From: Pontibacter qinzhouensis | GTDB lineage: Bacteria > Bacteroidota > Bacteroidia > Cytophagales > Hymenobacteraceae | Direction: 5' to 3' | Length of the DNA stretch: 64,000 bases | Assembly (NCBI RefSeq): GCF_008017455.1 | Contig: NZ_VRTY01000015.1 | Span: 1 to 64,000, forward strand | Shown: positions 45,676-63,263 of the stretch, one piece after another | Layout of the letters: each line of letters begins with the position of its first letter | How positions within the stretch are numbered: the first letter of the stretch is position 1 | Made by a program: the position numbers and the translations under genes | Notes under the pieces: generated by a model | Database searches by the model: none | Told to the model about the DNA's origin: nothing | Seen by the model: the letters and a program-made list of their open reading frames with translations, nothing else

Positions 45676-45691
45676 TTGCAATCGGTTGCAA
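45676..45691. promoter_or_regulatory. LacI-type operator upstream of susC
   Basis: TTGCAATCGGTTGCAA has six-base mirrored arms around a central CG, the normal form for LacI-family operators. The same 16 bases, and a few beyond on both sides, occur at 63248-63263 in front of the lacI gene. This is the probable site for the LacI regulator at the far end of the xylan locus. Confidence 0.75.
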
Positions 45692-45725
45692 TTATAAAAT
45701 ATTATTATCAAGTTTATGTCGGCTT

Positions 45726-45741
45726 ACAAACAAATGTTTGT
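45726..45741. promoter_or_regulatory. Second palindrome upstream of susC, shared with fucP
   Basis: ACAAACAAATGTTTGT has seven-base mirrored arms, ACAAACA and TGTTTGT. It matches the site at 39576 upstream of fucP in 15 of 16 bases and lies 34 bp after the LacI operator. It probably binds a second regulator. Confidence 0.55.
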
Positions 45742-46224
45742 TTAAGGGCTTTTCTGGTGCTGCTTCTATACCCTATGCATTATTTAGATCCATACTTCTT
45801 ACACGTTTCTTCTCCTGGCTATGAGCAGGTTAGGCAGAACAATCAACGTTGGGCGGAGAGGAAGAGAATGCAACGTGTATCTGGCAAGCCTGTTAGCTAC
45901 TTTTATATGCTTATTTGTAAGAACGCATTTACTCCGGAACAGCAGTGGCAGCAAAGTGAGGTGAGGCAACAACAGGTGCCCGCACTTTTGCTTTATATCG
46001 AAAAATATATTGGTATGTCAAAAATTGCCAACGTTGGCATAAACTATCAGTCTTTAAAAAAGTGTTCATTTTTCCATCTCTCATACCACTCACAACTCAT
46101 GTTAACTACTCCCCGCAACGCTGCCTGTTTCGGCAGTTGTTCTCTAACCAGGCTTCCATTTGCAGGGTGCCTTTGCCTCTTTATAGTTCATCATTTAAAA
46201 TAACCTCAAAAACAATACATATCT

Positions 46225-49200
46225 ATGAAATGTGATTTTACACAAAAACCAAGAGCGATCAGCGGGCAACTGGGCAAGCCAAGAGCCTTGCAAGTAGCCT
46301 CCATGCTGGTAACCTTTCTTTTCCTGAGTCTGCAAACGCTGGCGCAAACCGGCAGTTTCCGGGTAAGCGGCCGTGTAACAGATGAGACTGGTGCCGGCCT
46401 TCCGGGGGTAACGGTGCTTCAAAAAGGAACTTCTAATGCTGCTCCAACCGATATAGACGGCAACTATACACTGAACCTTCCTGACGGAACAGGTACGCTG
46501 GTATTCACGTTTGTCGGTTATCAGTTGCTGGAGCAGGCGGTTAACAATAGGGCTACTATAAATGTTACCCTGCAAAGCGACTCCAGAGCGCTTGATGAGG
46601 TGGTGGTTATTGGCTACGGCGTGCAGCGGCAGGAAGCTGTAACTGGTTCTGTTGTTTCTATAAGTGGAGCAGAGTTAAACCAGGTGCCGTCAGCAAATAT
46701 TTCACAGGCTCTGCAAGGGCGCTTGCCAGGTGTAGAATTTTCACAGTCATCTTCTCAGCCGGGTGCCACCACCCAGATACGCATCCGGGGTACACGCTCT
46801 TTAACTGCTACAAACGACCCGTTGGTAGTATTAGACGGTATTCCTTTCCCAGGGTCTATTGGCGATATCAATCCAATTGATATACAGAGTGTAGACATAT
46901 TGAAAGATGCCTCTGCAACTGCTATCTATGGTTCACGCGGTGCCAACGGTGTTATATTGGTTACAACCAAATCAGGTAAAGCAGGACAAAAAGCACAGAT
47001 AACTTTTAACAGTTTTACTGGTGCAAAAACGGTGTTCTCCAGGTATCCGATGATGAACGGCGAAGAGTTCTTTGCGCTCCGTCAGGCTGCCGGGCAGTAT
47101 GCTGGTCAGCTTGGAGAGGATGAGGCTGAGGGTGTGAATACTGATTGGCAGGATTTACTTTTCAAAACAGGTGTCATTACAAGCCAGGATATTAATGTTT
47201 CCGGTGGAACAGAGAAAGGTCGCTACAGCTTCAGTGGAGGTTACTTTAAAGACCAGGGCGTGGTACCTACACAGCAGTACACTCGATATTCCATGCGAGG
47301 CAGCCTAGATCAAGGAGTAGGTAAATACATCCGTTTAGGTTTTACAACAAACAATAATTACAGTACTACAGAGGGTGCAAATATTGGCTTGTACAACACG
47401 TTAAGTGCTTCCCCAATTGCAAACCCATACAATGCTGACGGCTCCCTGAAAAGAACTGTAAGACTACCGCTCGATGAACAGTGGGTGTTTGAAAGAAACA
47501 GGATAGAAGACTTAAGTGATCGCTGGCTGAATCAAAATAGAGTTCTTGCCTCCTATAACAATGTTTTTGGCGAATTGGCTATTCCTGGCGTGGAAGGGTT
47601 AAAGTTCCGCACGAACCTGGGTTTAAACTACCGTCATAGCCAAACAGGTACTTTTACTGGTGAGGGTATCAACGCTGTTACTCCGACAACGCCTTCAAGC
47701 GGCACACTTAGCAATTCAGTAACTGCAGACTATACGATTGAGAACATCCTGACTTATGATCGCACTTTTGCAGAGAAGCATAATTTAAATGTAGTTGGGT
47801 TATATTCAGCGTCTCAGACCCGGTTCAACCGTTCGCATATTCTAGGACGTAATATTCCTTCAGATGCCTTCCAGTTTTATAACCTAGGATTGGCCACTGA
47901 CGAAATTACAGTTGATCCTAATCAGCAGCAATACTGGCAAACAGGCTTAATGTCTTGGATGGGACGGGCCATGTACTCCTATGATGACCGCTATATGATT
48001 AGTGCAACTGTGCGATCAGATGGTTCTTCTGTGCTGGCACCAGGTTATAAATGGAATACTTATCCTGCTGTATCAGTAGGCTGGAATATTGCCAGGGAAT
48101 CATTTATGCAGGATGTTAGCCTTATAAATATGCTGAAGTTGCGTGCTGGCTATGGTCAGACCTCTAACCAGGCTGTAACTGCTTACTCCACTTTAGGACG
48201 CTTGGCTACCAGGCCTTATAACTTTGGTCCTACAGATTATCAGACAGGATTATGGGTAAACCAGTTACCTAACGACAGATTAGGATGGGAGTTTTCTAAA
48301 ACATGGAATTATGGCTTGGATTTCGCAATCTTAAATCATCGTTTGTCAGGTACTGTGGAGTATTATGTAACTAACACGGAAGATGTTCTGCTTGGATTGC
48401 CTCTGCCTAGAACATCAGGTGCAGAAAGCTTTACAACTAATATTGGCTCAACCCAAAATAAAGGTATTGAGCTTGCTCTTAACGGCGTAATCCTGGACAA
48501 TCTTAACGGCTGGACGTGGGAAGCGGGTATAAACATGTATGCTAACCGCAACAAAATAGTATCGTTAGCAGGGGAGCAGCAAAGAAATGAAAGCCAGTGG
48601 TGGTTTGTAGGCAGCCCTATCAACGTTATCTATGACTTTGAGAAAACAGGCCTGTGGCAAGAGGGAGATCCTCATCTTAATATCCTGGAGCCAGGTGGTA
48701 ATGTAGGCATGATAAAAGTACGCTATACCGGCGATTATACTGCTGATGGCACACCAACAAGACCAGTTGGGCCTCAAGACCGACAGATTCTGGATACAAC
48801 TCCTAACTTCCAGGGCGGATTTAACACACGAGTTGCTTACAAAGGATTCGACCTGACTGCAGTAGGAGCATTTCAGAATGGAGGCATCCTTATTAGCACA
48901 CTCTATGGATCGTCGGGCTACCTGAACATGCTGAACGGACGACGCGGAAACATTAATGTAGATTACTGGACACCAGAAAACACTGATGCCAAATACCCAA
49001 GACCAGGTGGCGCAACCAGCGGCGACAACCCCAGATATGCCAGCACTTTGAGTTATTTCGATGCGTCTTACCTGAAAATGCGCACCATTACCCTGGGCTA
49101 TAATTTTAACCAGAACAACTGGATTAAAGAAGCAGGATTCAGTAATCTGCGCCTTTACGTTACAGCACAGAATCCTTTTGTTTTATTCTCGCCATATAAC

Positions 49201-49347
49201 AGAGAATCAGGCATGGACCCTGAGACCAACTCCTATGCCGATCAAAATGTGGCTGTAACAACTGGTACTCCTAATCGCTTTTTAACGATCGGTACAAACG
49301 CACCTTCAACACGCAGTTTTCTGGTTGGTTTAAATGTTACTTTCTAA
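46225..49347 (+). CDS. SusC/RagA-family TonB-dependent transporter
   Basis: 1040 residues. A signal peptide ends at about residue 39 (SLQTLAQ). A carboxypeptidase-like regulatory domain follows (about 45-120, VSGRVTDETGAGLPGVTVL). The TonB box/plug (about 128-245) contains EVVVIGYGVQRQEAVTGSV, the SusC signature, and DILKDASATAIYGSRGANGV. The barrel ends in FLVGLNVTF, with the terminal Phe needed for outer-membrane insertion. It imports oligosaccharides with TonB energy and pairs with the SusD lipoprotein encoded next. The surrounding genes point to (methyl)glucuronoxylan fragments as cargo. Two operators lie about 0.5 kb upstream. Confidence 0.95.
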   Translation: MKCDFTQKPRAISGQLGKPRALQVASMLVTFLFLSLQTLAQTGSFRVSGRVTDETGAGLPGVTVLQKGTSNAAPTDIDGNYTLNLPDGTGTLVFTFVGYQLLEQAVNNRATINVTLQSDSRALDEVVVIGYGVQRQEAVTGSVVSISGAELNQVPSANISQALQGRLPGVEFSQSSSQPGATTQIRIRGTRSLTATNDPLVVLDGIPFPGSIGDINPIDIQSVDILKDASATAIYGSRGANGVILVTTKSGKAGQKAQITFNSFTGAKTVFSRYPMMNGEEFFALRQAAGQYAGQLGEDEAEGVNTDWQDLLFKTGVITSQDINVSGGTEKGRYSFSGGYFKDQGVVPTQQYTRYSMRGSLDQGVGKYIRLGFTTNNNYSTTEGANIGLYNTLSASPIANPYNADGSLKRTVRLPLDEQWVFERNRIEDLSDRWLNQNRVLASYNNVFGELAIPGVEGLKFRTNLGLNYRHSQTGTFTGEGINAVTPTTPSSGTLSNSVTADYTIENILTYDRTFAEKHNLNVVGLYSASQTRFNRSHILGRNIPSDAFQFYNLGLATDEITVDPNQQQYWQTGLMSWMGRAMYSYDDRYMISATVRSDGSSVLAPGYKWNTYPAVSVGWNIARESFMQDVSLINMLKLRAGYGQTSNQAVTAYSTLGRLATRPYNFGPTDYQTGLWVNQLPNDRLGWEFSKTWNYGLDFAILNHRLSGTVEYYVTNTEDVLLGLPLPRTSGAESFTTNIGSTQNKGIELALNGVILDNLNGWTWEAGINMYANRNKIVSLAGEQQRNESQWWFVGSPINVIYDFEKTGLWQEGDPHLNILEPGGNVGMIKVRYTGDYTADGTPTRPVGPQDRQILDTTPNFQGGFNTRVAYKGFDLTAVGAFQNGGILISTLYGSSGYLNMLNGRRGNINVDYWTPENTDAKYPRPGGATSGDNPRYASTLSYFDASYLKMRTITLGYNFNQNNWIKEAGFSNLRLYVTAQNPFVLFSPYNRESGMDPETNSYADQNVAVTTGTPNRFLTIGTNAPSTRSFLVGLNVTF

Positions 49348-49357
49348 AAAGATACTA

Positions 49358-51322
49358 ATGAAACGTTATAAAATTAAGAAATTTATAGGCACGGCTGCCT
49401 TAACACTGGCCTTAGTGGGGTGCAAAGATATTCTGGATGAACAGCCCCGTAGTATATATGATCCCAGCTTTTTCCAGACCGAAAGGGGGCTGGATGGTGG
49501 CTTAACGTCGATGTACGCGCACTTGCGTTGGATTTATGGCGATGCCTACTACTATAACACCGGACTAACAGGCACCGATGAAGTTACCTACGGCAGAGAT
49601 GCTGATGAGAACTTCCTGGTAATGGACTTATCAGGTAGAGGTGTTATTAACTCCAACAACAGCCGCGCCGACAGGTTATGGGAGAATGCATTCCCTAATA
49701 TTAACACTGCTAGCGGCATTATCGAAAATGCTGCTTTAGTTGGCACCGTTTCGCCGGCACTAGTTGCTGAGGCAAGATTTTTCCGTGCCTTCGATTACTT
49801 TTTGCTGGTGCAGACGTTCGGTGGTGTGCCCTTAGATTTGGGTTCAGGAGAGTTACAGTTTAACAGAACTCCCAATAGGAATTCTGTTCGTAACACGGTG
49901 CCGGAAGTTTATACCAAAGCCATATTCCCTGACTTAATTAGGGCAGTAGAAGATTTGCCTGTAACCGGGCGAATGATTGGCGGGGCAACTAAAACGTTAG
50001 CACAACTATATCTGGCAAAAGCTTACTTAACCTACGGGTGGTGGCTGGAGAATCCCAATAATATTCCTACTTACCCGGCTGCACAACGAGTTGATCCGGA
50101 TGGCCATAATGCCCAGTGGTATTTCCAGCAGGCTTATGATATAGCAGCCTCAGCCATAGATAATCCAGGTCCTTTCGGTCTGATGGAAACCTTTTATGAT
50201 GTGAATCTGGCGCAAAACGACCGCAACAAAGAAATGCTATTGTTTGCCGATCATACTGAGGCTAGCGAGTTGTATAATGGTGGCAGCCTTACCTGGGGTA
50301 ATGGCGGCGCACCCGATAACTTTGCCGGCTGGATGATGACATGGAACTACACCAACATCAGAAGCTCAACTAGTGAGACAAGTTGGTCTAACCCGACTGT
50401 TTCTTCTGTTCAACGCGAAGCTGTGCAGGCACTTGGCCGCCCCTGGACGCGTATGGCTCCCACAATTGGTGCCATTACAAATACGTTTGCAGATAAAACC
50501 AATGACTCGCGCTACGATGGCACTTTTACAACTGTTTATCGTGGAAACTGGCCGAAAGGCGGGGTTGCTAATCCTATGCTTTACAATGCTAATTTACTTC
50601 CAGTTCAACCAGGTGATGCCATTCTTACATTCCTGAACGAAGAACCTGCAGGAACTATTAGTTACCCTGCACCAGGTCAAGCAGGAAGAAGCAATGTGGG
50701 TGCAGGAGAACTTCCGGGAAGAGCCGATTTTGTAATTTCACCACAAGGCATAAGCAGAATTGTATATCCTGGCCTTTGGAAGCTGGGCCCTTACCGTACC
50801 GATAATGGTGACGGATTAGGACAACCCAATGCCGGCAGTACTCGCCCTTTCCATATTGCCAAATTCTCAGAACTGTACTTTATAGCTGCTGAAGCAGCTG
50901 TAAAGGGAGCTACTCCACAAGGTGGTAAGAGCGCCAGAGATTTGATAAACGTTATCCGGGCACGTGCCGGTATGTGGCGCTGGAACAACAATGGCAATGT
51001 TGCCAAAGTAGAAGACAACAGCGCAGCCATGGTAGCGGCAACACCTGCCACTTTAGATGTTAACTATATTCTGGCAGAGCGCTCACGCGAGTATTTTGGC
51101 GAAGGTTACCGTTGGTACGATCTGGTACGTACGCAAAAGTGGAATGAACTTGCTTCCTCTTACAGTATAGGCGGAGACAGATATGGAGATCATACACCAG
51201 TAACTGTAACACGAACAATAGAACCTTATCATTACCTTCGACCAATTCCGCAAGCACAGTTAGATCGGATGGATGTAAGCCCTGATGTAAAGGCTGCTTA
51301 CCAAAACCCGAATTATAATTAA
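49358..51322 (+). CDS. SusD/RagB-family nutrient-binding lipoprotein
   Basis: 654 residues from ATG 49358 (MKRYKIKKFIGTAALTLALVGC). The lipobox ALVGC puts the lipidated cysteine at residue 22. The SusD N-terminal domain begins KDILDEQPRSIYDPSFFQTERGL, and the C-terminal RagB/SusD domain includes HIAKFSELYFIAAEAAVKGA (about 500) and VNYILAERSREYFGEGYRWYDLVRT (about 570). It caps the SusC channel on the cell surface and binds glycan. The start lies ten bases after the susC stop. A perfect 19-pair hairpin about 145 bp downstream marks the end of the pair's transcript. Confidence 0.95.
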   Translation: MKRYKIKKFIGTAALTLALVGCKDILDEQPRSIYDPSFFQTERGLDGGLTSMYAHLRWIYGDAYYYNTGLTGTDEVTYGRDADENFLVMDLSGRGVINSNNSRADRLWENAFPNINTASGIIENAALVGTVSPALVAEARFFRAFDYFLLVQTFGGVPLDLGSGELQFNRTPNRNSVRNTVPEVYTKAIFPDLIRAVEDLPVTGRMIGGATKTLAQLYLAKAYLTYGWWLENPNNIPTYPAAQRVDPDGHNAQWYFQQAYDIAASAIDNPGPFGLMETFYDVNLAQNDRNKEMLLFADHTEASELYNGGSLTWGNGGAPDNFAGWMMTWNYTNIRSSTSETSWSNPTVSSVQREAVQALGRPWTRMAPTIGAITNTFADKTNDSRYDGTFTTVYRGNWPKGGVANPMLYNANLLPVQPGDAILTFLNEEPAGTISYPAPGQAGRSNVGAGELPGRADFVISPQGISRIVYPGLWKLGPYRTDNGDGLGQPNAGSTRPFHIAKFSELYFIAAEAAVKGATPQGGKSARDLINVIRARAGMWRWNNNGNVAKVEDNSAAMVAATPATLDVNYILAERSREYFGEGYRWYDLVRTQKWNELASSYSIGGDRYGDHTPVTVTRTIEPYHYLRPIPQAQLDRMDVSPDVKAAYQNPNYN

Positions 51323-51570: not shown

Positions 51571-52734
51571 ATGCCCTTACTACAAAGCTGGCGCTGGTAC
51601 GGCCCCAACGACCCCGTTACACTTCAGGATATAAAGCAGGCAGGAGCCACGGCCATAGTGAGTGCCCTGCACCACATGCCACACGGCGCAGTTTGGCCAC
51701 TGGAGGAGATACAGGAGCGCAAACGAATAATAGAGGAAGCAGGCCTTACCTGGGCTGTGGTAGAAAGTGTGCCGGTGCATGAGGCCATTAAAACCCGCAG
51801 TACCGATTGCGAGCTTTACATCGAGAATTACCGGCAGTCGCTGCGCAATATCGCTGCTTGCGGCATCCGGACGGTCTGCTACAACTTTATGCCCGTACTC
51901 GACTGGACCCGCACCAACCTCGCCTACACACTCGCAAACGGTGCCAAAGCCCTCTATTTCGACTGGACCGATCTGGCGGTTTTTGACCTCTATATTTTGA
52001 AAAGAGCAGGTGCTGAACAAGATTACGAAGCAGCAGTAGTGGCAGAGGCCAAACAGCGGGTGGAGACGAAGCCGACAGCTTATCTGCAGGAACTGGCCGA
52101 TATTATTTTAATGGGTGTGCCCACAGAAGGCAGCATCACACTGGAGCAGCTTACGCACAGCATCGGCATTTACAAAGAGATCGGGCATGCCGGCCTTCGC
52201 GAGAACCTGGCTTATTTCCTGGAGAGTATTATGGAGGTGTGTGAGGAAACAGGGATCAACATGACCATTCACCCGGACGATCCGCCGTACCCCATACTTG
52301 GCCTGCCCCGCATTGCCAGCTCTAAAGATGATCTGTTGTATATAATCGAGCGAGTTGACCGGGAGCCGAATGGTATCTGCTTCTGCACGGGCTCACTTGG
52401 TGCTGGCCGGCATAACGACCCGGTAGAGATTCTGAAAGCCGTAGGGCACCGGGTTTATTTTGCCCACCTGCGCAATGTGAAACACGACGAGTCAGGTAAC
52501 TTCTACGAATCTGATCATCTGGCAGGAGATGTAGACATGTATGGCGTAATGCGTGAGCTGGTAGAAATTAACCGGCAACGGGAGCAGCCAATCCCTTTCC
52601 GACCAGACCACGGCCACCAGATGCTCGACGACTTGCACAAAGTTACGAACCCAGGTTATTCTGCTATCGGGCGCTTACGAGGCCTGGCGGAACTGCGGGG
52701 CCTGGAAATGGGCATCGAGCGGTCATTACATTAG
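51571..52734 (+). CDS. uxuA: D-mannonate dehydratase
   Basis: 387 residues of the UxuA family. It dehydrates D-mannonate to 2-keto-3-deoxy-D-gluconate in glucuronate breakdown. Signatures are the start SWRWYGPNDPVTLQDIKQAGAT, VCYNFMPVLDWTRT (about 110-123), the metal-binding MTIHPDDPPYPILGLPRI (about 230-247, His-x-Asp), FCTGSLGAGRHND (about 271-283, Cys) and FRPDHGHQML (about 345). It links the xylan side-chain sugar released by GH67/GH115 to central metabolism. The isomerase UxaC, which supplies fructuronate from glucuronate, is not in the window. A 57-bp repeat follows 15 bases after the stop. Confidence 0.94.
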   Translation: MPLLQSWRWYGPNDPVTLQDIKQAGATAIVSALHHMPHGAVWPLEEIQERKRIIEEAGLTWAVVESVPVHEAIKTRSTDCELYIENYRQSLRNIAACGIRTVCYNFMPVLDWTRTNLAYTLANGAKALYFDWTDLAVFDLYILKRAGAEQDYEAAVVAEAKQRVETKPTAYLQELADIILMGVPTEGSITLEQLTHSIGIYKEIGHAGLRENLAYFLESIMEVCEETGINMTIHPDDPPYPILGLPRIASSKDDLLYIIERVDREPNGICFCTGSLGAGRHNDPVEILKAVGHRVYFAHLRNVKHDESGNFYESDHLAGDVDMYGVMRELVEINRQREQPIPFRPDHGHQMLDDLHKVTNPGYSAIGRLRGLAELRGLEMGIERSLH

Positions 52735-52882: not shown

Positions 52883-55837
52883 ATGACGTTTTTCAGGCAT
52901 CAAACCCATTTAAGAACAATGCCACCAGCCATGGGTGCTGCAGTGGCGCAACCATGGTACCAGCTACGGCTCCTGCTCCTGCTTTGCCTCCTGCTGCCAC
53001 TGGCAGCGGCAGCCACCGTAGGTCAGAAGCCCTACATCTCTAACCAGAAGGTAGCCGGAAGTTTCTCGTTAGCGACAGCTGGTAAAGCGGCTCCACTGTA
53101 TGTAAGCTCTCAGGATTTTCCGGGGGTTATGCGGGTGGCAAAGCACCTGCAAGCCGATGTGAAGCGGGTAACACAAACGGAGCCGGTTCTTACCGTCAGT
53201 AATTCGCCTGCCTCCAAACAGAAAGAAATTGTGCTGATCGGAACACTGGGCAAAAGTCCGCTGATCGATAAGCTGGTGAAACAGAAGAAGCTGGCGGTGG
53301 AGGGCGTGGCCGGAAAACGCGAAACTTTCCTGATACAGGTGGTGGAGAAACCGATGAAAGGTGTAGACCGGGCTCTGGTAATTGCAGGCAGTGACAAGCG
53401 CGGCACCATCTATGGCATGTACGACCTGTCGGCACAAATCGGGGTGTCGCCGTGGTACTACTGGGCCGATGTGCCGGTGCGGCAGAAAGAGCAGCTGTTC
53501 GTGCTGCCTGGCCGCCACACCGAAGGCGAGCCGGTGGTGGAGTACCGTGGTATATTTATCAATGATGAGGCTCCAGCCCTGAGTGGCTGGTCGAGGGAGC
53601 AGTTCGGAGGCTTTAACCATAAATTTTACGACAAGGTATTTGAACTCCTGCTGCGCCTGAAAGGAAACTATTTGTGGCCAGCCATGTGGGGCAGCGCCTT
53701 CAGCGACGACGATCCGCTCAATGCTCCGCTGGCCGATGAGTATGGCGTGGTTATCGGCACCTCGCACCACGAGCCGCTCATGCGCGCCCACGACGAATGG
53801 CGCCGCTACGGCTCCGGCCCGTGGAACTACGACACCAACAAAGCCAACCTGCAGGAGTTCTGGCGCAAAGGCATCGAGCGCATGGGCACCAAAGAGAGCA
53901 TCGTATCGGTAGGCATGCGCGGCGATGGCGATGAGCCGATGAGTGAAGAAAGCAACATTGCCCTACTGGAGAAAATTGTGGAAGACCAGCGCCAGATTAT
54001 TGCAGAGGTAACCGGAAAACCCGCCTCTCAAACGCCTCAGCTCTGGGCGCTCTACAAAGAGGTGCAGGAGTACTACGAGAAAGGCATGCGCGTACCCGAT
54101 GATGTAACGCTACTCCTATGCGACGACAACTGGGGCAACATCCGGAAGCTGCCCAAACCAAACGAAAAACCGCACCCAGGCGGTTACGGCATCTATTACC
54201 ACTACGATTATGTAGGTGGCCCAAGAAATTACAAATGGCTTAATACTAACCCAATACCCAGGGTGTGGGAGCAGATGCACTTGGCTTATCGCTACGGCGC
54301 CACCAAAATCTGGATCGTGAACGTAGGTGATATCAAACCAATGGAGTTCCCTACAGAGTTCTTTCTTGACTACGCCTGGAACCCGGAGAAGTGGCCTATA
54401 GAGAGGCTTCAGGAGTACACACAACTGTGGGCTGCCCGTGAGTTTGGCGCAGAGCATGCACCTGCCATAGCAGACTTTGTGGCCCGCTACACCAAATACA
54501 ACAGCCGCCGTAAGCCTGAACTGCTTGCCCCCAACACCTACAGCCTGGTTAACTACCGGGAGGCAGAACGGGTGGTGGCCGAATACAAGCAGCTGGCAGA
54601 GGAGGCCGAGAAGGTTTACAGCGCCTTGCCGGAAGCACATCGGGATGCCTATTACCAGTTGGTGCTGCACCCCATAAAGGCCTGTGCCAACCTGAACGAG
54701 CTGCACGTAAACACCGGCCTCAACTGGCTCTATGCCAAACAAAGCCGGGCCGCCGCTAATAAAATGGCTGCCAGTGTAAAAGAGCTGTTCGAAAAAGATC
54801 AGGAGCTGAGCAGGTACTACAACAAAACTATGGCTGGCGGCAAATGGAACCACATGATGGACCAGACCCACATTAGCTACACCTATTGGCAGCAACCCGA
54901 GAAAGATGTACTCCCGGAGCTGAAAACGCTGAACCTGCCAAGCGCAGCTGCCTTGGGAGTGGCCATAGAAGGCAGCGAAGCCTGGTGGCCAGAGGCAAAG
55001 CAGGAGGCAACGCTACCTGCTCTGGATCCGCTGCAGCAGCAGACTACTTACATCGACATCTATAACAGAGGCACAACGCCCTTCGAGTTTACAGTGCAGG
55101 CAGGAGCACCTTGGCTTAAAGTATCGGCTGGCAAAGGCAGAGTAGAGGAGGAGCAACGACTGGTCCTGAGCGTAGACTGGCAGCAGGCGCCACAGGGGCA
55201 GCATCGCGTTCCGATAACCATCAGCGGCCCCAAAGGCAGCAAGGTGGTGGTACAGGCACTTGTAAATAATACGGCTCTAAAGGCAGCGCAGCAACAGGGT
55301 TTTGTGCACAGCTCCAGCTACCTGACCATAGAAGCCCCGCAGTATATCAGGGCACAGGAAACGGAGCAGGTAAAATGGCAACTGCTGCCAGACCTGGGCC
55401 GAATAGGTTCTGCCATTACTGCTTTTCCTGTAACAGCTCCGGCCCAAAAACCTGGCGGCAAAAGCCCATGCCTGGAGTACCGCATAACCCTGCAGCAGGC
55501 CGGTGAAATTACTGTGCATGCTTACCTTAGCCCAACGCTCAATTTCAACGATACCCAAGGCCTGCGCTATGCCGTTTCTATCGATGACGAAACACCGCAG
55601 CTGATCAACATGCATGCTGGCGAGACTGGTAAGCTATGGGATCAGTGGGTGGCAAACAACATCAACATCAAATCCTCGAAGCATCAGGTAAAGGAGCCGG
55701 GCGAGCACGTGCTTAAGTTCTGGGTGGTAGACCCCGGGGTAGTGTTGCAAAGGCTTATTATTGATACCGGCGGCTTAAAACCTTCGTACCTGGGTCCGCC
55801 CGAAAACTACAGGCAAACCTCGCAGGCGGTCAATTAA
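52883..55837 (+). CDS. GH115 alpha-glucuronidase
   Basis: 984 residues. The N-terminal hydrophobic stretch LRLLLLLCLLLPLAAAATV is a signal peptide; ATG 52919 (MPPAMGAAVAQPW) is a likely alternative start. GH115 landmarks are GSDKRGTIYGMYDLSAQIGVSPWYYWADVP (about 173-202), VEYRGIFINDEAPALSGW (about 219-236), LKGNYLWPAMWGSAF (about 256-270) and VSVGMRGDGDEPM. A Gylcosyl-hydrolase-115 C-terminal domain follows to the end. The enzyme removes 4-O-methylglucuronic acid from internal xylose units of polymeric xylan, complementing GH67, which needs a terminal position. It would act in the periplasm or outside. Confidence 0.92.
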   Translation: MTFFRHQTHLRTMPPAMGAAVAQPWYQLRLLLLLCLLLPLAAAATVGQKPYISNQKVAGSFSLATAGKAAPLYVSSQDFPGVMRVAKHLQADVKRVTQTEPVLTVSNSPASKQKEIVLIGTLGKSPLIDKLVKQKKLAVEGVAGKRETFLIQVVEKPMKGVDRALVIAGSDKRGTIYGMYDLSAQIGVSPWYYWADVPVRQKEQLFVLPGRHTEGEPVVEYRGIFINDEAPALSGWSREQFGGFNHKFYDKVFELLLRLKGNYLWPAMWGSAFSDDDPLNAPLADEYGVVIGTSHHEPLMRAHDEWRRYGSGPWNYDTNKANLQEFWRKGIERMGTKESIVSVGMRGDGDEPMSEESNIALLEKIVEDQRQIIAEVTGKPASQTPQLWALYKEVQEYYEKGMRVPDDVTLLLCDDNWGNIRKLPKPNEKPHPGGYGIYYHYDYVGGPRNYKWLNTNPIPRVWEQMHLAYRYGATKIWIVNVGDIKPMEFPTEFFLDYAWNPEKWPIERLQEYTQLWAAREFGAEHAPAIADFVARYTKYNSRRKPELLAPNTYSLVNYREAERVVAEYKQLAEEAEKVYSALPEAHRDAYYQLVLHPIKACANLNELHVNTGLNWLYAKQSRAAANKMAASVKELFEKDQELSRYYNKTMAGGKWNHMMDQTHISYTYWQQPEKDVLPELKTLNLPSAAALGVAIEGSEAWWPEAKQEATLPALDPLQQQTTYIDIYNRGTTPFEFTVQAGAPWLKVSAGKGRVEEEQRLVLSVDWQQAPQGQHRVPITISGPKGSKVVVQALVNNTALKAAQQQGFVHSSSYLTIEAPQYIRAQETEQVKWQLLPDLGRIGSAITAFPVTAPAQKPGGKSPCLEYRITLQQAGEITVHAYLSPTLNFNDTQGLRYAVSIDDETPQLINMHAGETGKLWDQWVANNINIKSSKHQVKEPGEHVLKFWVVDPGVVLQRLIIDTGGLKPSYLGPPENYRQTSQAVN

Positions 55838-56091: not shown

Positions 56092-57216
56092 ATGTACTAT
56101 AAAATGAACAGACACTCCACTTACAAGAAAGCAATCTTCCTGCTGGCCTTTTCATCCGTATTTGCAGTCGGTTGCCAAAACAATGCTTCCGAAAACCAGG
56201 CGCAGGAGACCGATACACCAGGCGCGACTTCTGGTTCTAAAAAATACCTGTCGGAGCCGTTGGTGACCGATAATTATACGGCAGATCCTTCTGCACATGT
56301 GTTCGACGGCAGAATCTACATCTACCCATCGCACGACATAGATGCAGGAGTGGCTGAAAAAGACGATGGCTCCCATTTCGATATGCGCGACTACCATGTG
56401 TACTCCATGGATAGTGTAGGCGGTGCAGTAACAGACCATGGCAAGGTGCTCGATATAAAGGATATTTCGTGGGCAGGGCGGCAGCTTTGGGCACCAGATG
56501 CTGCGCACAAAAACGGAAAATATTACCTCTACTTCCCTGTTAAAGATAAGCAGGATGTGTTCAGGATCGGCGTTGCCACCAGCAATTCGCCAGCCGGACC
56601 GTTTAAGCCGGAGCCACAGCCCATCGCCAACAGCTACAGCATAGACCCGGCTGTTTTTACCGATACCGACGGAACCTCCTATATGTATTTGGGTGGTATC
56701 TGGGGTGGTCAGTTGCAACGCTGGAGCACAGGAACCTACCAGGCAGAAGATAAATACCCAGCAGATGATCAGCCTGCCTTGATGCCGAAAGTTGCCCGAA
56801 TGAGCGCAGATATGCTCTCTTTTGATGGCCCTCTCAAAGATGTGCAGCTGCTCGATGAAAACGGTAAACCTTTACTTACTGGCGACAACGAACGCCGCTT
56901 TTTTGAAGCCGCCTGGGTGCATACGTACAACGGTAAATACTACTTCTCGTACTCCACCGGCGACACTCACAACATTGCTTACGCCACCGGCGACAGCCCT
57001 CTGGGGCCTTTCACTTACAAAGGAGTTATTCTGAACCCGGTTGAAGGCTGGACAAACCACCACTCCATTGTAGAGCACAACGGCAAATGGTACCTATTCT
57101 ACCACGACACGCAACGCTCCGGCAAAACGCACCTTCGCAACATAAAAGTAACGGAGCTGCAGCATAACCCTGACGGCAGCATCCAGACCATTACGGCTCA
57201 ATCGGAAGAAGCTTAG
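56092..57216 (+). CDS. GH43 beta-xylosidase/alpha-L-arabinofuranosidase lipoprotein
   Basis: 374 residues. A lipoprotein signal ends VFAVGC (lipidated Cys about 28; the start may be the Met at residue 5). The five-bladed propeller shows the three acid residues of GH43: catalytic base Asp in YTADPSAHVFDGRIYIYPS (about 63), the pKa-modulating Asp in SIDPAVFTDTDG (about 183) and the acid Glu in RRFFEAAWVHTYNGKYYFSY (about 262). It trims xylose or arabinose from xylan oligomers. It is the last forward gene of the locus; the specificity cannot be settled from sequence. Confidence 0.9.
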   Translation: MYYKMNRHSTYKKAIFLLAFSSVFAVGCQNNASENQAQETDTPGATSGSKKYLSEPLVTDNYTADPSAHVFDGRIYIYPSHDIDAGVAEKDDGSHFDMRDYHVYSMDSVGGAVTDHGKVLDIKDISWAGRQLWAPDAAHKNGKYYLYFPVKDKQDVFRIGVATSNSPAGPFKPEPQPIANSYSIDPAVFTDTDGTSYMYLGGIWGGQLQRWSTGTYQAEDKYPADDQPALMPKVARMSADMLSFDGPLKDVQLLDENGKPLLTGDNERRFFEAAWVHTYNGKYYFSYSTGDTHNIAYATGDSPLGPFTYKGVILNPVEGWTNHHSIVEHNGKWYLFYHDTQRSGKTHLRNIKVTELQHNPDGSIQTITAQSEEA

Positions 57217-57672: not shown

Positions 57673-58791
57673 CTACTTTTTTGCTGCGGCCTTTACAACT
57701 GCCTCAAAAGCTGGTTTAGGCTGGTAGTTCCGGTCGAAGAGCATCGGGTAGCTTGTTCTTCCTTTTATAGGCCAATCGTTGAGCCAGGAGTCGCGGTCGG
57801 TTACACCCCAGAACGTAACCCTGCTGATTTTGTCTTGGTGCTTCCGGAAGAGCTTGAAAATCTCGGCGTAGCGTGCTGCCAGCTCCTGCTGTACATCGTC
57901 TGGCAAGCCATCGGTGTAGAGGTTGTATTTTTCGTCAAAGCCGAAGGTTGCGTCTATATCGGCTCCCTGGCGGTTGCTCGGATTAGGGAGCACATCGATG
58001 TCGAGTTCCGTAATAACCACCTTGGCACCTGTTTTTGCAAAGGCAACAATGCTTTCTTCTATCTGGGCGATGGTCGGGGTCTTTAGGCCCCAATGGCCCT
58101 GCATGCCTATGGCATCTACTTTTATGCCCTTCTCCTGCAAGCTTTTTACCAACCTGATGGCGCCATCGCGTTTGGCTGGTTTCCACATGTTGTAGTCGTT
58201 GTAGTATAGCTCGGCTGCAGGGTCTGCTTTTCTGGCAAAGGTAAAGGCCTGCGCCACAAAATCGTCGCCTATCTGCTGCTGCCATTTGCTCTGGCGCATG
58301 GTGCCATCGTCGTTCAGTGCCTCGTTCACCACATCCCAGCCATTAATTTTGCCTTTATACCGACCGGCCACAGCCTGTATGTGCTCTTCCATGCGCTTCA
58401 GTAACTGGTTCTTGCCAAGTGGTTTTCCCTGCTCATCTTCAAACACCCAGGCCGGCGTTTGCTGGTGCCACACCAGTGCATGCCCTACAATAAACATGTT
58501 GTGCTTCTGGCCAAGTGCTACATAATCGTCGGCGGGTTTAAAGTTATAGCTGTCGGGGCGGGGATGCACCGATTCCCATTTCAGCAGGTTTTCAGGGCTG
58601 ATGGTGTTGTAGTGCCTGGCTATTATAGCTTCTGCCTGCGGATCTTGTGAACCTGCCTGCCTGCCGTTTAGGGCTGCTCCTATATAGAAGTCCTTTTTAT
58701 ACAAGTCTTTCAGGGCAACATCGCCTCGTTGGGTAAAACCGATACACGCCAGCGCCAGGCACGTGCTAAGCCAGGTTTTTCTTATATTCAT
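57673..58791 (-). CDS. GH10 endo-beta-1,4-xylanase
   Basis: 372 residues. A short signal-like start (MNIRKTWLSTCLALACIGF) precedes one GH10 TIM barrel. The acid/base is Glu157 in GWDVVNEALND and the nucleophile is Glu262 in VVITELDID. NLLKWESVHPRPDSYNF (about 68-84), HALVWHQQTPAW (about 104-115) and WGVTDRDSWL near 330 are further family landmarks. It cuts the xylan backbone. There is a Cys at 15 without a good lipobox, so lipidation is uncertain. On the reverse strand it is the last gene of the lacI-GH67-SDR-GH10 series. Confidence 0.93.
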   Translation of the reverse strand: MNIRKTWLSTCLALACIGFTQRGDVALKDLYKKDFYIGAALNGRQAGSQDPQAEAIIARHYNTISPENLLKWESVHPRPDSYNFKPADDYVALGQKHNMFIVGHALVWHQQTPAWVFEDEQGKPLGKNQLLKRMEEHIQAVAGRYKGKINGWDVVNEALNDDGTMRQSKWQQQIGDDFVAQAFTFARKADPAAELYYNDYNMWKPAKRDGAIRLVKSLQEKGIKVDAIGMQGHWGLKTPTIAQIEESIVAFAKTGAKVVITELDIDVLPNPSNRQGADIDATFGFDEKYNLYTDGLPDDVQQELAARYAEIFKLFRKHQDKISRVTFWGVTDRDSWLNDWPIKGRTSYPMLFDRNYQPKPAFEAVVKAAAKK

Positions 58792-58836: not shown

Positions 58837-58893
58837 AATTATTCTAATGAATTGGCCCTTCCAAAAGGTTTTAGTCAGAATTTATCCAAGGGT
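58837..58893 (+). repeat. 57-bp intergenic repeat, copy 20
   Basis: AATTATTCTAATGAATTG, core GCCCTTCCAAAAGG, end TCCAAGGGT. It lies between the SDR and GH10 genes, with the ACCCTTGG end facing the upstream SDR stop. Confidence 0.87.
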
Positions 58894-58967
58894 CTGGAAC
58901 ATGACAACTTTCCCGAATCCTGTTCCTTTTACTTGTTTTCTTGATACAGAACTTTGCTGAAGGTGAC

Positions 58968-59035
58968 AATTATGCGAACTAACACGGCCTTCAGAAGCAC
59001 TTCAAGAGCATTTCTTCCTGAGGCTTGCCCAGGGG
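58968..59035 (+). repeat. 57-bp-type repeat, copy 21 (degenerate)
   Basis: AATTATGCGAACTAACACG and GGCCTTCAGAAG are recognisable. The right end reads CCCAGGGG about ten bases later than usual and touches the SDR stop. It is an older, decayed copy next to copy 20. Confidence 0.55.
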
Positions 59036-59794
59036 CTAAAACCCGATAGAGTTACCGCCATCAACAGGTAGTATGGTGCCTGTAACGTACTTGGCTGCGT
59101 CGGTGGCGTAAAAATAAACGGCTTCTGCCACATCGTCTGGTGCGCCTAACCTGCCCATCGGGGTGCGCGACATTACTTTGTTTTTGCGTTCAGGGTCGTT
59201 GTCCAGTGCTTTGGCCGACATGTCGGTGGCGATAAAACCGGGGGCGATGCAGTTTACCCGGATGCCCAGCGGCGAGAGCTCCACTGCCATGGCTTTGGTC
59301 ATGCCCTCTATGCCTGATTTAGCGGCTGTGTAGGCAATTACCTTCGGAATACCGTATTGGGCGGCCATGGAACTGATGTTGATAATACAGCCTTGCCCCT
59401 GGGGCAGCATTACCTTTACCACCTCGCGGCTTAAGGCAAATACGGATGTTACGTTGGTCAGCAGCACCTTCTGAAAATCCTCATCTGTTACTTCCACAAA
59501 AGGTTTTTTCATGTTTACTCCGGCGTTATTTACCAGAATGTCTATGCGGCCAAATTCAGCTTCTATTTCCCGTACCAGCCCCGGAATGCGGTCCAGGTGG
59601 CTCAGGTCGAATGAGATGCAGGAACACATGTCGCCAAAGGCTTCTTTGGCGCGCTTTAGTTTCTGCTCATCTCTTCCGATAATGATAGTGCGTATATTGT
59701 TTCGCACAAATTTTTCGACGATGGCATAACCAAGTCCGGAGCCGCCTCCGGTTACTATCGCTATTTTGGGTGCTGCAGTAGTATGCTCGTTCAT
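59036..59794 (-). CDS. SDR dehydrogenase, probably a fructuronate/keto-sugar-acid reductase
   Basis: 252 residues, classical SDR. Cofactor site VTGGGSGLG (about 14-22), NNAG in DILVNNAGVN (about 88), catalytic Ser in ISSMAAQYG and Y-x3-K in VIAYTAAKSG (Tyr about 154). The closest groups are gluconate 5-dehydrogenase, 2-deoxy-D-gluconate 3-dehydrogenase and SDR-type fructuronate reductase. Since mannonate dehydratase is encoded in the same locus and no UxuB-type reductase is seen, reduction of fructuronate to mannonate is the best inference. It lies between GH67 and GH10 on the same strand. Confidence 0.83.
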   Translation of the reverse strand: MNEHTTAAPKIAIVTGGGSGLGYAIVEKFVRNNIRTIIIGRDEQKLKRAKEAFGDMCSCISFDLSHLDRIPGLVREIEAEFGRIDILVNNAGVNMKKPFVEVTDEDFQKVLLTNVTSVFALSREVVKVMLPQGQGCIINISSMAAQYGIPKVIAYTAAKSGIEGMTKAMAVELSPLGIRVNCIAPGFIATDMSAKALDNDPERKNKVMSRTPMGRLGAPDDVAEAVYFYATDAAKYVTGTILPVDGGNSIGF

Positions 59795-59948
59795 ATGTAT
59801 TTAGTAATTTTGATACGTTTGAAGTTATTAGTAACTAGCTGATTTACAATTAAGTTGTAGTATTACAGAAGTTGGTATTCCTTAGGAAGCAAACTTTTAT
59901 GATTAGATATAAATTAGCCTGTTTATAAGCTAAGTGATTATTTAAATA

Positions 59949-62114
59949 TTAAATGCCAGGCACAAACTGCGGATCTAGGTTCATGTAGTACTCCAGGGTT
60001 TGGGTTGGTTTCTCCAGCTCCTGTGGTATGGGTCTCTTAGAATATGTCTGGAAGTAGAGCAGGCAGGCATCGCGCCACCACCTGGCTTCCTGCTCCTGAA
60101 TCTTCAGCAACGATTGCACGTGGGCAAACCGTTCTTCATCTAGCGCAGGTGCTACTTTCGCCCAGTTTTGCTGCATGTCGCGCACTTGCTGCACTCCGTC
60201 GGAGTACCTGTAACAGAGTTCGTTCCAGAGCGTTCGGCCAGACTTTAGCTTATGATCCCAGCTTACATGGTGGAACCAGAGCAAAAACTCCTCTGGGCAG
60301 GTTTTGAGGTTGCCAAACTGTTTTTGTACGGCAGGTGCATACTGGGCCAGGGCGTTACTACCTGTCTTGGTTCTGTCGAAGCCAATACCTTTTTCATCGG
60401 CGCGGTGGTAGTAAACCGATGTCCAGTCGGCGCGGTGCTTGTCTTTTATCCAGGGGCCGGGGCCGTAGTGGTGCGACCAGCCCATAATGTGGTGCAGGCC
60501 CAGTGGTGTCATGTAGTTAACCACAGCTTCGCGCGAGGTCATCAGCATATCCTGAACCGGCAGTACAACGTTGGCATTGGTAGAAAAGGTCATGTTAATC
60601 CATTCGGTTGCAATGGATTCAGAAGAAAGCTGGTGGTTCCAGGCAAGTCTCCCGAAAGCATACCAGTTCGACTGCCCGAACAAATGCCCGGTCCAGTTGC
60701 GGTCGTTTCCAATGTTGGCTACACCTGCTATGCCTGTTAAGGTGTGGTTATCGAGGGTGCCGTCTATTACTTTTGCTACAGTAGATCCTTTTCCCTTGGT
60801 GTGGGTGTCGGCCTGCAGGGTTTCGCGGAACATAGGTGCCAGGTAAGCCAGGTTCGTTGCCTGCCCCAGGTACTCCTGCGTTATCTGGAACTCCATCATA
60901 ATAGGCGTTTTAGGCATAGCTCCAAACAGCGGGTGAAAAGGCTCTCTGGGCTGAAAATCGATAGCGCCGTTCTTCACCTGCACCATCACATTTTTCCGGA
61001 ACTGCCCATCGAGCGGTTTAAACTCATTGTAAGCTTGTTTAGCGCGGTCATCGGGTTCTTTGTCATCGTACACAAAGGCGCGCCACATCACAATGCCACC
61101 TTGGGGCGCTACGGCATCTGCCAGCATATTGGCACCATCAGCGTGGTTACGGCCATAGTTCTGCGGCCCTGGTTGCCCCTCAGAGTTGGCTTTCACCAGA
61201 AAGCCCCCAAAGTCGGGCACATAGCTATAAATTTCAGCGGCTTTGTCTTTCCACCAGGTTTGTACCGTTGGGTCGAGCGGGTCGGCTGTTTGCAGGCCAC
61301 CTATTTCTATGGGGGCACTGAAGCGGGCTGTCAGGTACACTTTTAAGCCGTACGGCCTGAAGGCATCTGCCAGGGCAGCCACCTTTACCAGGTACTCTTT
61401 TGTAAGCACCAGGGCGTTGGCGTTTACATTTGTAAGCACGGTACCGTTAATTCCTAAGGAGGCATTGGCGCGGGCATAGTCGAGGTACCGCTGATCTATG
61501 TAGCCCGGTAGTTTATGCCAGTCCCAGAGCGAGAAACCGGCATAGCCGCGTTCTACGGTACGGTCGAGGTTATCCCAGTGGTTGAGCACGCGGTGCTGTA
61601 GTTTGGGGGAGCTGCTGATCGAGAGCTTGCTGATGTCCTGGGCAGTTTGGAGTAGGCGCAGAAAATGAAAGGTGCCATACAGCACACCCACCTCTGTGTT
61701 TGCAGCCAGCACAGTGCTGTTTTTGCCATTCACGGGCATGGTCAGCAGGAGGTAACCTTCGGGGCCAACAGCTTTGAGTTTATCATTTAGTTGCAAGGCA
61801 GCCACTACAGGTGAGCTGGCAGGCGTACCTGCCACCAGGGCACCGGCTTTGGTGGGTTGTTTCGTGAAAATTATGTCCTGGCCCAGGAGGCCTTTTAGCC
61901 CCTGCGTCAATTCTTTTCTGGCAATAGCCAGCGTCGGGCTGCTGCCTTCTATAACTATTTCGGAGACCTGCTGCCGGTATTGCTGTAGCTTGTTGGCATC
62001 CTGCACCTGGTCGTAGCGCAACCACAGCCTGTAACCATCTTCCGCCAGTACGGAGCGGCCCATGCTGAGCACCAGGATGAGCAGTGCTGTGAGGGTGAGT
62101 GTTTTGTGTATCAT
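59949..62114 (-). CDS. GH67 alpha-glucuronidase
   Basis: 721 residues from the ATG at 62114 (MIHKTLTLTALLILVLSMG), which begins a signal peptide ending near LAEDG. A longer frame to 62159 lacks a sensible start. GH67 landmarks: VLNHWDNLDRTVERGYAGFSLWDW (about 190-213), DFGGFLVKANSEGQPGPQNYGR with the acid Glu (about 317), and the base pair Asp in AIDFQPREPF (about 386) and Glu in PIMMEFQITQEYLG (about 414). It removes methylglucuronic acid from the non-reducing end of xylo-oligomers. It lies 79 bp after lacI and is probably co-transcribed. Confidence 0.94.
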   Translation of the reverse strand: MIHKTLTLTALLILVLSMGRSVLAEDGYRLWLRYDQVQDANKLQQYRQQVSEIVIEGSSPTLAIARKELTQGLKGLLGQDIIFTKQPTKAGALVAGTPASSPVVAALQLNDKLKAVGPEGYLLLTMPVNGKNSTVLAANTEVGVLYGTFHFLRLLQTAQDISKLSISSSPKLQHRVLNHWDNLDRTVERGYAGFSLWDWHKLPGYIDQRYLDYARANASLGINGTVLTNVNANALVLTKEYLVKVAALADAFRPYGLKVYLTARFSAPIEIGGLQTADPLDPTVQTWWKDKAAEIYSYVPDFGGFLVKANSEGQPGPQNYGRNHADGANMLADAVAPQGGIVMWRAFVYDDKEPDDRAKQAYNEFKPLDGQFRKNVMVQVKNGAIDFQPREPFHPLFGAMPKTPIMMEFQITQEYLGQATNLAYLAPMFRETLQADTHTKGKGSTVAKVIDGTLDNHTLTGIAGVANIGNDRNWTGHLFGQSNWYAFGRLAWNHQLSSESIATEWINMTFSTNANVVLPVQDMLMTSREAVVNYMTPLGLHHIMGWSHHYGPGPWIKDKHRADWTSVYYHRADEKGIGFDRTKTGSNALAQYAPAVQKQFGNLKTCPEEFLLWFHHVSWDHKLKSGRTLWNELCYRYSDGVQQVRDMQQNWAKVAPALDEERFAHVQSLLKIQEQEARWWRDACLLYFQTYSKRPIPQELEKPTQTLEYYMNLDPQFVPGI

Positions 62115-62193
62115 AGGAGTTGTTGTATGGCAAAAGGAAAGCTGCCCGTAACCCGACACAGGTCAGCAGCTGGAAGTGGCAGAAGATAAAGAA

Positions 62194-63222
62194 CTATTCT
62201 ATCTTCGTTCTAAGGGAGGAAGCCCGCACAATCAATTCGGAACGGAGGGTGATGGTATTGGTGATGGTAATGTCAGATAAGCCGTTGAGGTGATGAATCA
62301 GACTTCGGACAGCTACTTCGCCCATTTCGTAGCCAGGGTAATTCACGGTGGTCAGGTTTGGCTCAATAACCCTTGAAATAGGGTCGTTGTTGAAGCCAAC
62401 TACTGCTATATCATCTGGTATCATTATTCCGGCCTTTTGTAACTCTCTCATACAGCTTACCGCAGCAGTGTCGTTCGATACGAAAAGACCGTCGGGCATA
62501 GGCTGCATTTTCAGAATCTGCTGTGCCGCCTCCACGCCAGCCTCTTCACTCAGGTTCGTGATGAGGACGAAAGACTCATCGAAGGGCAGGTTGTTATCTA
62601 TTAGAGCGTATCTATAGCCTTTTAGCCTGTCGGCATATACGTTTCGTTTCTGGTTTGCGGTCAGGTGCAAAATGCGTTTGCAACCTTGTTTGGCCAGGTG
62701 GCAGGTAGCTTTGTAAGCTGCCTGGAAATTATCTATCACAATGCTGGTACACTGGTTATGCTCAATTACACGATCATAAAAAATAACAGGCGTACCTTTG
62801 CTGATAAATGGCTCAAAATGATCCATGGTGTCTGTTTCATAAGCCAGCGAGACCAGCAGGCCATCTACACGACTATCGAACATGGTGCGGGCATTGGTTA
62901 TCTCCTTTTGCATGGTCTCCAGCGACTGCGTAATTATCAGGTTATAGTCAGCGTTGTTGGCTTCTTTTTCCATGCCCGCCATTACCGACGACATAAAGGG
63001 GCTGTTAAGGCGGGGTACAATAACCCCGATGGTATTGGTGCGTTGCTTCCGGAGGTTGCTGGCAAAGATGTTCGACCTATAGCCCATTTGCGCCGCAATG
63101 TCACAGATTTTTTGCTTGGTGTTTTTGTTTACGGCCGGATGATCGTTTAGCGCTCTGCTCACAGTAGTAGGAGAGAGGTCTAATTCTTTCGCTATATCAT
63201 AGATTGTTATATCTTTATCCAT
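62194..63222 (-). CDS. LacI-family transcriptional regulator of the xylan locus
   Basis: 342 residues. The N-terminal helix-turn-helix and hinge read ITIYDIAKELDLSPTTVSRAL and MGYRSNIFASNLRKQRTNTIG (about 5-65). The sugar-binding periplasmic-protein-like domain spans about 65-335 (GVIVPRLNSPFMSSVMAGME, VAVVGFNNDPISRVIEPNLTTV). An operator identical to the one before susC lies 26-41 bp upstream of its start, so it probably represses itself and the susC side until an inducer, likely a xylan or glucuronate derivative, binds. It is the first gene of the reverse half. Confidence 0.93.
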   Translation of the reverse strand: MDKDITIYDIAKELDLSPTTVSRALNDHPAVNKNTKQKICDIAAQMGYRSNIFASNLRKQRTNTIGVIVPRLNSPFMSSVMAGMEKEANNADYNLIITQSLETMQKEITNARTMFDSRVDGLLVSLAYETDTMDHFEPFISKGTPVIFYDRVIEHNQCTSIVIDNFQAAYKATCHLAKQGCKRILHLTANQKRNVYADRLKGYRYALIDNNLPFDESFVLITNLSEEAGVEAAQQILKMQPMPDGLFVSNDTAAVSCMRELQKAGIMIPDDIAVVGFNNDPISRVIEPNLTTVNYPGYEMGEVAVRSLIHHLNGLSDITITNTITLRSELIVRASSLRTKIE

Positions 63223-63247
63223 AACCGGAAGTATTTATCAATTGTTG

Positions 63248-63263
63248 TTGCAATCGGTTGCAA
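63248..63263. promoter_or_regulatory. LacI-type operator upstream of lacI
   Basis: TTGCAATCGGTTGCAA, identical to the site at 45676-45691 before susC, and sharing TTG before and T after it. Its place right upstream of the lacI start suggests autoregulation. Confidence 0.78.

Follow-up and report, generated by a model that had tools for sequence, protein, structure and literature searches.

Two identical putative LacI-type operators at the ends of a xylan locus in Pontibacter qinzhouensis and a probable second operator at its transporter promoter

A 64,000-nucleotide stretch of the Pontibacter qinzhouensis genome (NCBI RefSeq assembly GCF_008017455.1, contig NZ_VRTY01000015.1, positions 1 to 64,000; hereafter, the window) carries a xylan locus with a forward half, susC-susD-uxuA-GH115-GH43, and a reverse half, lacI-GH67-SDR-GH10. 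Two identical copies of the 16-mer TTGCAATCGGTTGCAA stand at its outer ends: op1a at the susC promoter (45676–45691, + strand) and op1b just before lacI (63248–63263, + strand). Based on comparison with related genomes, both copies are very probably operators of the LacI-family repressor encoded at the locus (LacI-1; 62194–63222, − strand), which would control both halves. Coordinates are window positions unless a contig is named. The genome of the window (G000) comprises 6,217,397 bases in 220 contigs; G- and L-numbers denote relatives and outside loci, and C-numbers denote contigs. Published papers are cited from excerpts of their text.

Results

The op1 sequence occurs exactly twice in the genome

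The first-pass annotation of the window had reported exact copies of TTGCAATCGGTTGCAA at 45676 and 63248, 17.6 kb apart. Both copies are present, and the whole genome holds no third, where a second-order Markov estimate for 6.2 Mb predicts 0.0056. At up to three mismatches, the 16-mer gives six strand-wise matches versus a shuffle mean of 1.08. The distance from the start of op1a to the susC ATG (46225) is 549 bp, and op1b has its start 26 bp away from the lacI ATG (63222, − strand), with 25 bases between. Most LacI operators are even palindromes centred on CG, and most LacI regulators are local and autoregulated (PMC4052901). Consistent with the LacI/GalR pattern, op1 is an even palindrome (14 of 16 positions self-complementary) with a central CG, is found before the regulator's own gene as well as before susC, and is conserved. 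LacI-1 itself combines a LacI helix-turn-helix (HTH) N-terminus (PF00356, E 5.6e-11) with a periplasmic-binding-protein-like sensor domain (PF13377, E 8.3e-31).

Two weaker copies within the locus are probably due to chance. One, at 56162 with two mismatches, falls within the GH43 frame, and the GH43 gene of the closest relative (G026) shows no counterpart to it at up to two mismatches; the other, at 60598 with three mismatches, is inside GH67. Genome-wide, a scan at up to three mismatches returns 56 strand-wise matches (50 places), most of which are chance, because a reversed-pattern control gives 42. Among the places read, 15 of 20 and nine of 12 fall inside mechanical reading frames; 13 of the 50 lay outside this reading.

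The regulator and its sites are conserved together

LacI-1 orthologs are found in 14 of 36 relatives within the genus Pontibacter, at 70–92% identity, and thus in 15 of 37 genus genomes when that of the window is counted. Other LacI proteins are at most 42% identical to LacI-1, except for a second copy in G028 (59%). GH67 follows the same distribution: all 15 of these genomes have the gene, and none of the 22 others does. Outside the genus, G054, from another family, has both a LacI-1 ortholog (61% identity) and GH67; G040 and G046 have GH67 and no LacI above 40% identity to LacI-1. One genus member (G002) carries a second GH67 copy of 62% identity at C1:5063791, away from its LacI-1 locus.

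Conservation was ranked without supervision for every 16-mer in the 400 bp before lacI and the 800 bp before susC, with no operator named in advance. On the lacI side, from which G026 was left out as too close, the op1 16-mer ranks first of 385, with 12 of 13 orthologs matching at up to two mismatches within 700 bp before lacI. On the susC side, the op1 region ranks first of 785 (10 of 12 orthologs; nine of 12 for the exact 16-mer). These two rankings overlap, as many relatives share a single lacI-susC intergenic region and a match there may be to either site. Thirteen of the 15 genus genomes have a site with up to three mismatches no further than 55 bp from the start of lacI. A scan of 50 genus genomes at up to one mismatch gives 19 matches versus two for a reversed-pattern control, and by position 14 of the 19 are at LacI-1 loci. 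The remaining five are on G030 C3, G009 C7, G067 C6, G028 C29 (position 27036, before a distant susC of the same contig) and G028 C15 (before a gene for the beta-galactosidase GalB). Beyond the genus, op1 sites are found upstream of LacI-1 in Cognataquiflexum (L168), Adhaeribacter (L169), a bin (L174) and G054. The contig of L174 is labelled Beijerinckiaceae and carries a Bacteroidota-like LacI-1/SDR/GH115 locus; it is possibly mis-binned.

Op1 sites accompany their genes through rearrangement

The genes susC and lacI are divergent neighbours in nine of the 15 genomes (G001, G002, G003, G007, G009, G019, G022, G024 and G034), and a single open reading frame (ORF) separates them in G020. In the window genome and G026, the halves are turned round such that the operator-bearing promoters stand at the outer ends of the locus, 17.6 and 23 kb apart, respectively. 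The loci of G028, G025 and G032 show rearrangements of other kinds. Several relatives have two op1 sites approximately 190–270 bp apart in the shared intergenic region, compared with the 17.6 kb of the window. The orders lacI-GH67-SDR-GH10 and susC-susD-uxuA are kept in most of the 15 genomes. Genes within the unit or outside it may carry additional sites: uxuA has its own op1 site in G028 and G024, and GH43 has one in G028 (in a region shared with lacI) and in Aquiflexum (L170). The sites of these genes in relatives argue for placing both halves in the LacI-1 regulon. The units of G001 also contain a glucuronate isomerase beside uxuA, a xylose isomerase and XylE, along with a transporter nearest the galactonate type and a xylulokinase-like kinase, the latter two below cut-off.

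Op1a precedes an invariant box, a likely promoter element

A gapless alignment on the susC-side operator reveals that 12 orthologs share an upstream A-tract, the operator core, an 18-bp spacing and the motif AnGTTTA, which is invariant in 12 of 12. In the window, this motif is the core of CAAGTTTA (45709–45716, + strand), the likely −7 box. Information per column is 1.77 bits in the box, 0.90 in the spacer, 0.53 just after the box, 0.30 far upstream and 0.26 further downstream. The alignment consists of the genomes with a susC-side site at up to two mismatches, and thus the conservation of the operator in it is partly a result of selection, while that of the downstream box is not. It excludes G024, G025 and G032, which have weaker sites or lack a susC ortholog in the DNA covered, and in G020 the aligned site precedes a 743-residue ORF that is itself before susC. 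Eight of 21 further op1 sites, none of which was used to find the box, have AnGTTTA at the same offset, against a background of approximately 0.0004 per position; some of these sites come from close relatives of the aligned 12 (L167 resembles G009), and not all are independent.

Bacteroidota promoters have TAnnTTTG at −7, to which Bacteroides adds TTTG around −33; in the excerpts of the same papers, the −33 motif is described as not found in Flavobacterium johnsoniae (PMC7366714, PMC9723704). CAAGTTTA matches four of the six fixed positions of TAnnTTTG, and a TTG inside op1a is located 20 nt before it. Since op1a lies 18 bp before the invariant box, steric repression is likely, and we infer that LacI-1 blocks the −33 region of the susC promoter. 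On the lacI side, a TTAnTTTG-like motif directly follows the operator in five relatives (G007, G034, G009, G003 and G022).

Just after the likely start site, an inverted repeat, AAACAAATGTTTGTTT (45728–45743, + strand), is seen in the promoter alignment. It varies among relatives, with perfect or imperfect AGTGAG-N6-CTCACT in several, and could be an mRNA 5′ hairpin or the site of another regulator. A leader ORF that overlaps op1a (45673–46203, 176 residues, TTG start) was judged not to be a gene, as it has no Pfam match; outside short blocks, the susC leader also aligns poorly with those of G026 and G028, which counts against it.

Genes of the locus

The gene names proposed in the first-pass annotation are retained. 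By gene call, the forward half encodes the TonB-dependent outer-membrane transporter SusC (46225–49347), SusD (49334–51322), the mannonate dehydratase UxuA (51571–52734), a glucuronate catabolism protein, a GH115 alpha-glucuronidase (52883–55837) and a GH43 protein (56092–57216), all on the + strand. On the − strand, LacI-1 (gene call and orthologs) is followed by a GH67 alpha-glucuronidase (59949–62159; gene call and ortholog comparison), an SDR dehydrogenase (59036–59794) and a GH10 xylanase (57673–58791; gene call). The SDR protein is possibly a fructuronate/mannonate oxidoreductase, with all equivalog models below cut-off. No hybrid two-component or extracytoplasmic function (ECF)/anti-sigma gene was found among 19 scanned ORFs (33–63 kb) and nine scanned downstream ORFs.

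A probable second operator in the susC leader

The second conserved block in the alignment of the window susC leader with those of G026 and G028 is the perfect palindrome TGCCAACGTTGGCA (op4; 46026–46039, no strand assigned), 350 bp from op1 at the same gene. Four exact copies are present in the genome versus zero for a reversed-pattern control. The others precede another susC (C213:1737), lie between xylB-xylA and a further LacI gene, LacI-4 (C155:33881), and precede a GH3 gene (C138:27221) whose best NCBIfam match, below cut-off, is the beta-xylosidase Xyl3A. Of the LacI-4 neighbours, xylA matches above cut-off and xylB below. Five LacI stretches were fetched by LacI similarity: the three with xylB (G026 C75, G028 C53 and G034) all have exact op4, which is absent from the two without xylB (G028 C54 and G000 C152). 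Op4 is also found at LacI-4 in G007, G002, G025, G024 and G000, although these were located through op4 itself. Its exact copy sits between LacI-4 and xylB in G026, G028, G034, G007, G002, G025 and G024. From this genomic context, op4 is probably the operator of a xylose LacI, LacI-4. Op4 is present in the xylan susC leader of three genomes (the window genome, G026 and, with one mismatch, G028) and was not found there at up to two mismatches in the other relatives read. The other susC promoter of the window genome mirrors this arrangement, with op2, the operator class of LacI-2 described below, and op4 372 bp apart (C213:1365 and 1737).

Sister repressors have variant candidate operators

The genes uxaC, kdgK and kdgA had been suggested as places to search for further op1 copies. 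What the search found there are variant operators of two other paralogs, LacI-2 and LacI-3, not copies. The uxaC gene belongs to a unit on C101 with LacI-2 at its head, and the divergent susC intergenic region contains ATGCAATCGGTTGCGC and GCGTAATCGTTTGCGC; both positions are conserved, at up to two mismatches, in all five relatives that were compared. When 1.5 kb upstream was read in 19 LacI-2 genomes, six had an op2 site at up to three mismatches, of which that of G017 probably arose by chance; in G001, G003, G007 and G022, four of the 13 others, the op2 pair is near or beyond 1.5 kb, past kduI-kduD. The kdgK and kdgA genes are on C143, divergent from LacI-3 (order LacI-3-kduI-SDR), and CTGCAATCGTTTGCAA lies between (C143:44662, L079). 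With two mismatches to op1, this is the sole site in the genome at up to two mismatches outside the window. CTGCAATCGTTTGCAA is also found in G026 and, with one mismatch, in G034; the LacI-3 operator was not seen in five more distant LacI-3 orthologs.

Position matrices for op1 and op2 separate the two classes, with own-class means of 25.8 and 23.5 and cross-class means of 12.1 and 7.3, respectively; the matrices were built from the same members that they score, and that for op1 includes both window sites. On the 84-kb contig, the op1 matrix gives op1a and op1b at 28.0, followed by 16.5. The op2 matrix gives 23.8 at ATGCAAACGATTGCGC (63889–63904, + strand), which fits the operator class of LacI-2 exactly, and 21.2 at the op2-like AAGTAATCGATTGCGC (63467–63482, + strand), followed by 12.8. 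A GH43/GH28/GH115/arabinofuranosidase cluster follows this pair, its first ORF beginning at 64371, and the placement suggests that this adjacent pectin/arabinan cluster is part of the regulon of the galacturonate LacI, LacI-2. The op2 pairs on C57 and C101 have the same spacing, 422 bp, but this was set aside: the two regions share no long alignment, and in G026 the spacing is 411 bp on C9 and differs for the C2 pair as well.

In the window genome, the recognition residues at positions 17, 18 and 29 (E. coli LacI numbering) are Pro, Thr and Ala in LacI-1, Ala, Ser and Arg in LacI-2, and Val, Ser and His in LacI-3. These residues may read the operator bases that differ. Taken together, the best view appears to be one of several LacI paralogs with diverged operators. 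Other sites of this type were noted. Op2-like sites precede genes for regulators with a GntR HTH and a sugar-binding domain on G000 C183 (29002 and 29203, L239) and C152 (37613, L237), the latter with a LacI gene on its other side. The LacI-type palindromes GCGCAATCGATTGCGC (C20:1916 and C49:4792) and ATGCAAACGTTTGCAG (C134:45059, C139:13215 and C174:29085) have two and three copies in G000, respectively.

Discussion

Proposed mode of action and its alternatives

In the proposed mechanism, LacI-1 dimers would bind op1b when inducer is absent, repressing their own gene together with the rest of lacI-GH67-SDR-GH10. At op1a, where the operator TTG would take the place of a −33 element 20 nt before the −7 box, bound LacI-1 would prevent RNA polymerase from loading for susC-susD-uxuA-GH115-GH43. 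A glucuronate-pathway metabolite derived from (methyl)glucuronoxylan, such as glucuronate, fructuronate or an aldouronate, may then lift repression of both units together. On the susC side, LacI-4, encoded beside xylA/xylB, would probably act as a second repressor at op4. The first-pass annotation took the sites to define the regulon of the locus. A single LacI-1 regulon of both halves is supported by the top-ranked conservation, the co-occurrence of LacI-1 with GH67 and the sites at uxuA and GH43 in relatives; "define" is too strong, since the susC leader also carries a different LacI-type palindrome, by context the probable operator of another LacI.

Several observations weigh against control of both halves by LacI-1 as described. 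Two of the 15 genus genomes (G024 and G025) have no site at up to four mismatches within 70 bp of lacI, and outside the genus L170, L171 and L172 have none at up to three mismatches between LacI and the next upstream gene. At the susC promoter, the first and last bases of CAAGTTTA do not agree with TAnnTTTG, and among the 21 further sites 13 show no exact AnGTTTA at this offset (G024 has AAGTTTG there). On the lacI side, the −7-like motif after the lacI-proximal operator is absent in the window and G026. Within both halves, gaps of 148–254 bp could hold other promoters, and terminator-like matches between 45.2 and 64 kb number 30 versus 21.4 ± 4.8 in shuffles. Continuity of each transcript across these gaps is presumed.

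Each half might instead have its own main control, by an activator or another repressor, with op1 only fine-tuning and no single regulon in practice. The presence of op4 in the susC leader only, the length of that leader and the inverted repeat that directly follows the likely start site would fit such an arrangement, as would the standing of hybrid two-component and ECF systems as the canonical controls of hemicellulase genes, with examples in Bacteroides (PMC10766802). The absence of such systems from the scanned ORFs and the overlap of op1 with the likely core promoter of susC speak against separate control, which we regard as unlikely. Less probable still is that op1 is bound mainly by LacI-2 or LacI-3, with LacI-1 in a minor role. 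The operators of the paralogs do overlap: on the op1 matrix, CTGCAATCGTTTGCAA of LacI-3 scores 22.0 and ATGCAATCGGTTGCGC of LacI-2 scores 19.5, relative to the mean of the op1 members given above, and cross-talk is therefore possible. As main binders, however, these paralogs are disfavoured by the clear separation of op1 and op2 members, by the differences at residues 17, 18 and 29, and by the presence of LacI-3 orthologs (E ≤ 1e-90) in only seven genus genomes, G000 included, versus the 13 of 15 LacI-1 genomes with a lacI-proximal op1. Finally, as the two identical sites share an orientation and flank a rearranged locus, they could be a chance repeat or a recombination footprint; like sites are found before the same genes in unrearranged relatives, and this explanation is close to refuted. 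Regulation of both halves by LacI-1 through op1a and op1b is the reading that we strongly favour.

The susC promoter may further act as a two-key lock, in which LacI-1 (glucuronate branch, op1) and LacI-4 (xylose branch, op4) must both release before susCD is expressed. This proposal is tentative, and we hold it slightly less probable than its opposite. It would involve at least four LacI paralogs whose half-sites share TGCnAnCG and whose other operator bases differ in step with residues 17, 18 and 29, such that operator pairs would differ between the susC promoters within a genome (op1 with op4 here, op2 with op4 on C213).

Comparison with known systems

Control of xylan uptake by LacI regulators is familiar, an ordinary kind of regulation that is already in print; among the matches listed in the openly accessible literature, there was no paper on these operators in Pontibacter. 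What was not foreseen, and is of most interest, is the probable second LacI operator in front of the transporter gene. In the excerpts consulted, Bacteroidota hemicellulose loci are described chiefly through hybrid two-component and ECF systems, whereas a cytoplasmic repressor is found here. Present in 15 of 37 genus genomes and recognizable outside the genus, LacI-1 appears to tie together uptake across the outer membrane, debranching and glucuronate catabolism, and on either side of a rearrangement its operators have stayed with the genes. The paralogs offer a natural setting in which to ask how related LacI repressors avoid one another's operators, and whether two sugar signals are integrated at a glycan transporter.

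In Bacteroides, the LacI-family regulators UxuR, UxaR and KdgR are predicted for glucuronate, galacturonate and 2-keto-3-deoxygluconate catabolism (PMC3878776, PMC4052901). As in that system, several LacI paralogs are associated here with hexuronate genes, and LacI-1, -2 and -3, beside uxuA, uxaC and kdgK/kdgA, match the roles of UxuR, UxaR and KdgR, respectively. In contrast to the Bacteroides regulators, LacI-1 lies beside GH67, GH115, GH10, GH43 and SusCD, that is, at the polysaccharide level. A single-protein contig scan, which reaches close relatives only, returned 15 loci, none of them labelled Bacteroides. The xylose regulator XylR of Bacteroides thetaiotaomicron (BT0791), which controls xylose utilisation, is of the NrtR family (PMC3878776), a different protein family from LacI-4, the neighbour of xylA/xylB here.

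For xylan itself, published TonB-dependent beta-1,4-xylan systems are under LacI-family regulators or hybrid two-component systems in B. ovatus, P. bryantii or X. campestris (PMC12125979); the present locus resembles these in having a LacI regulator over TonB-dependent xylan uptake, although the passage in question does not assign regulator to organism. A LacI gene is also shown in the figure of a Gramella flava xylan polysaccharide utilization locus (PMC5306329). Hybrid two-component and ECF systems, by comparison, are membrane sensor systems able to control SusCD xylan loci (PMC10766802). A parallel to a pair of repressors is found in Anaerocellum bescii, in which XynR (LacI) and XylR (ROK) share xylan and xylose genes; the XynR sites, four of which are validated by binding, include xyl3A, xynR-xylB and, as a prediction, an alpha-glucuronidase-uxuBA operon (PMC12285236). 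Here too, two repressors, as candidates from sequence, would act over xylan and xylose genes. A. bescii, as described there, is a Firmicute that uses ABC transporters, has no SusCD and has a ROK-family XylR, whereas both candidate regulators in P. qinzhouensis belong to the LacI family.

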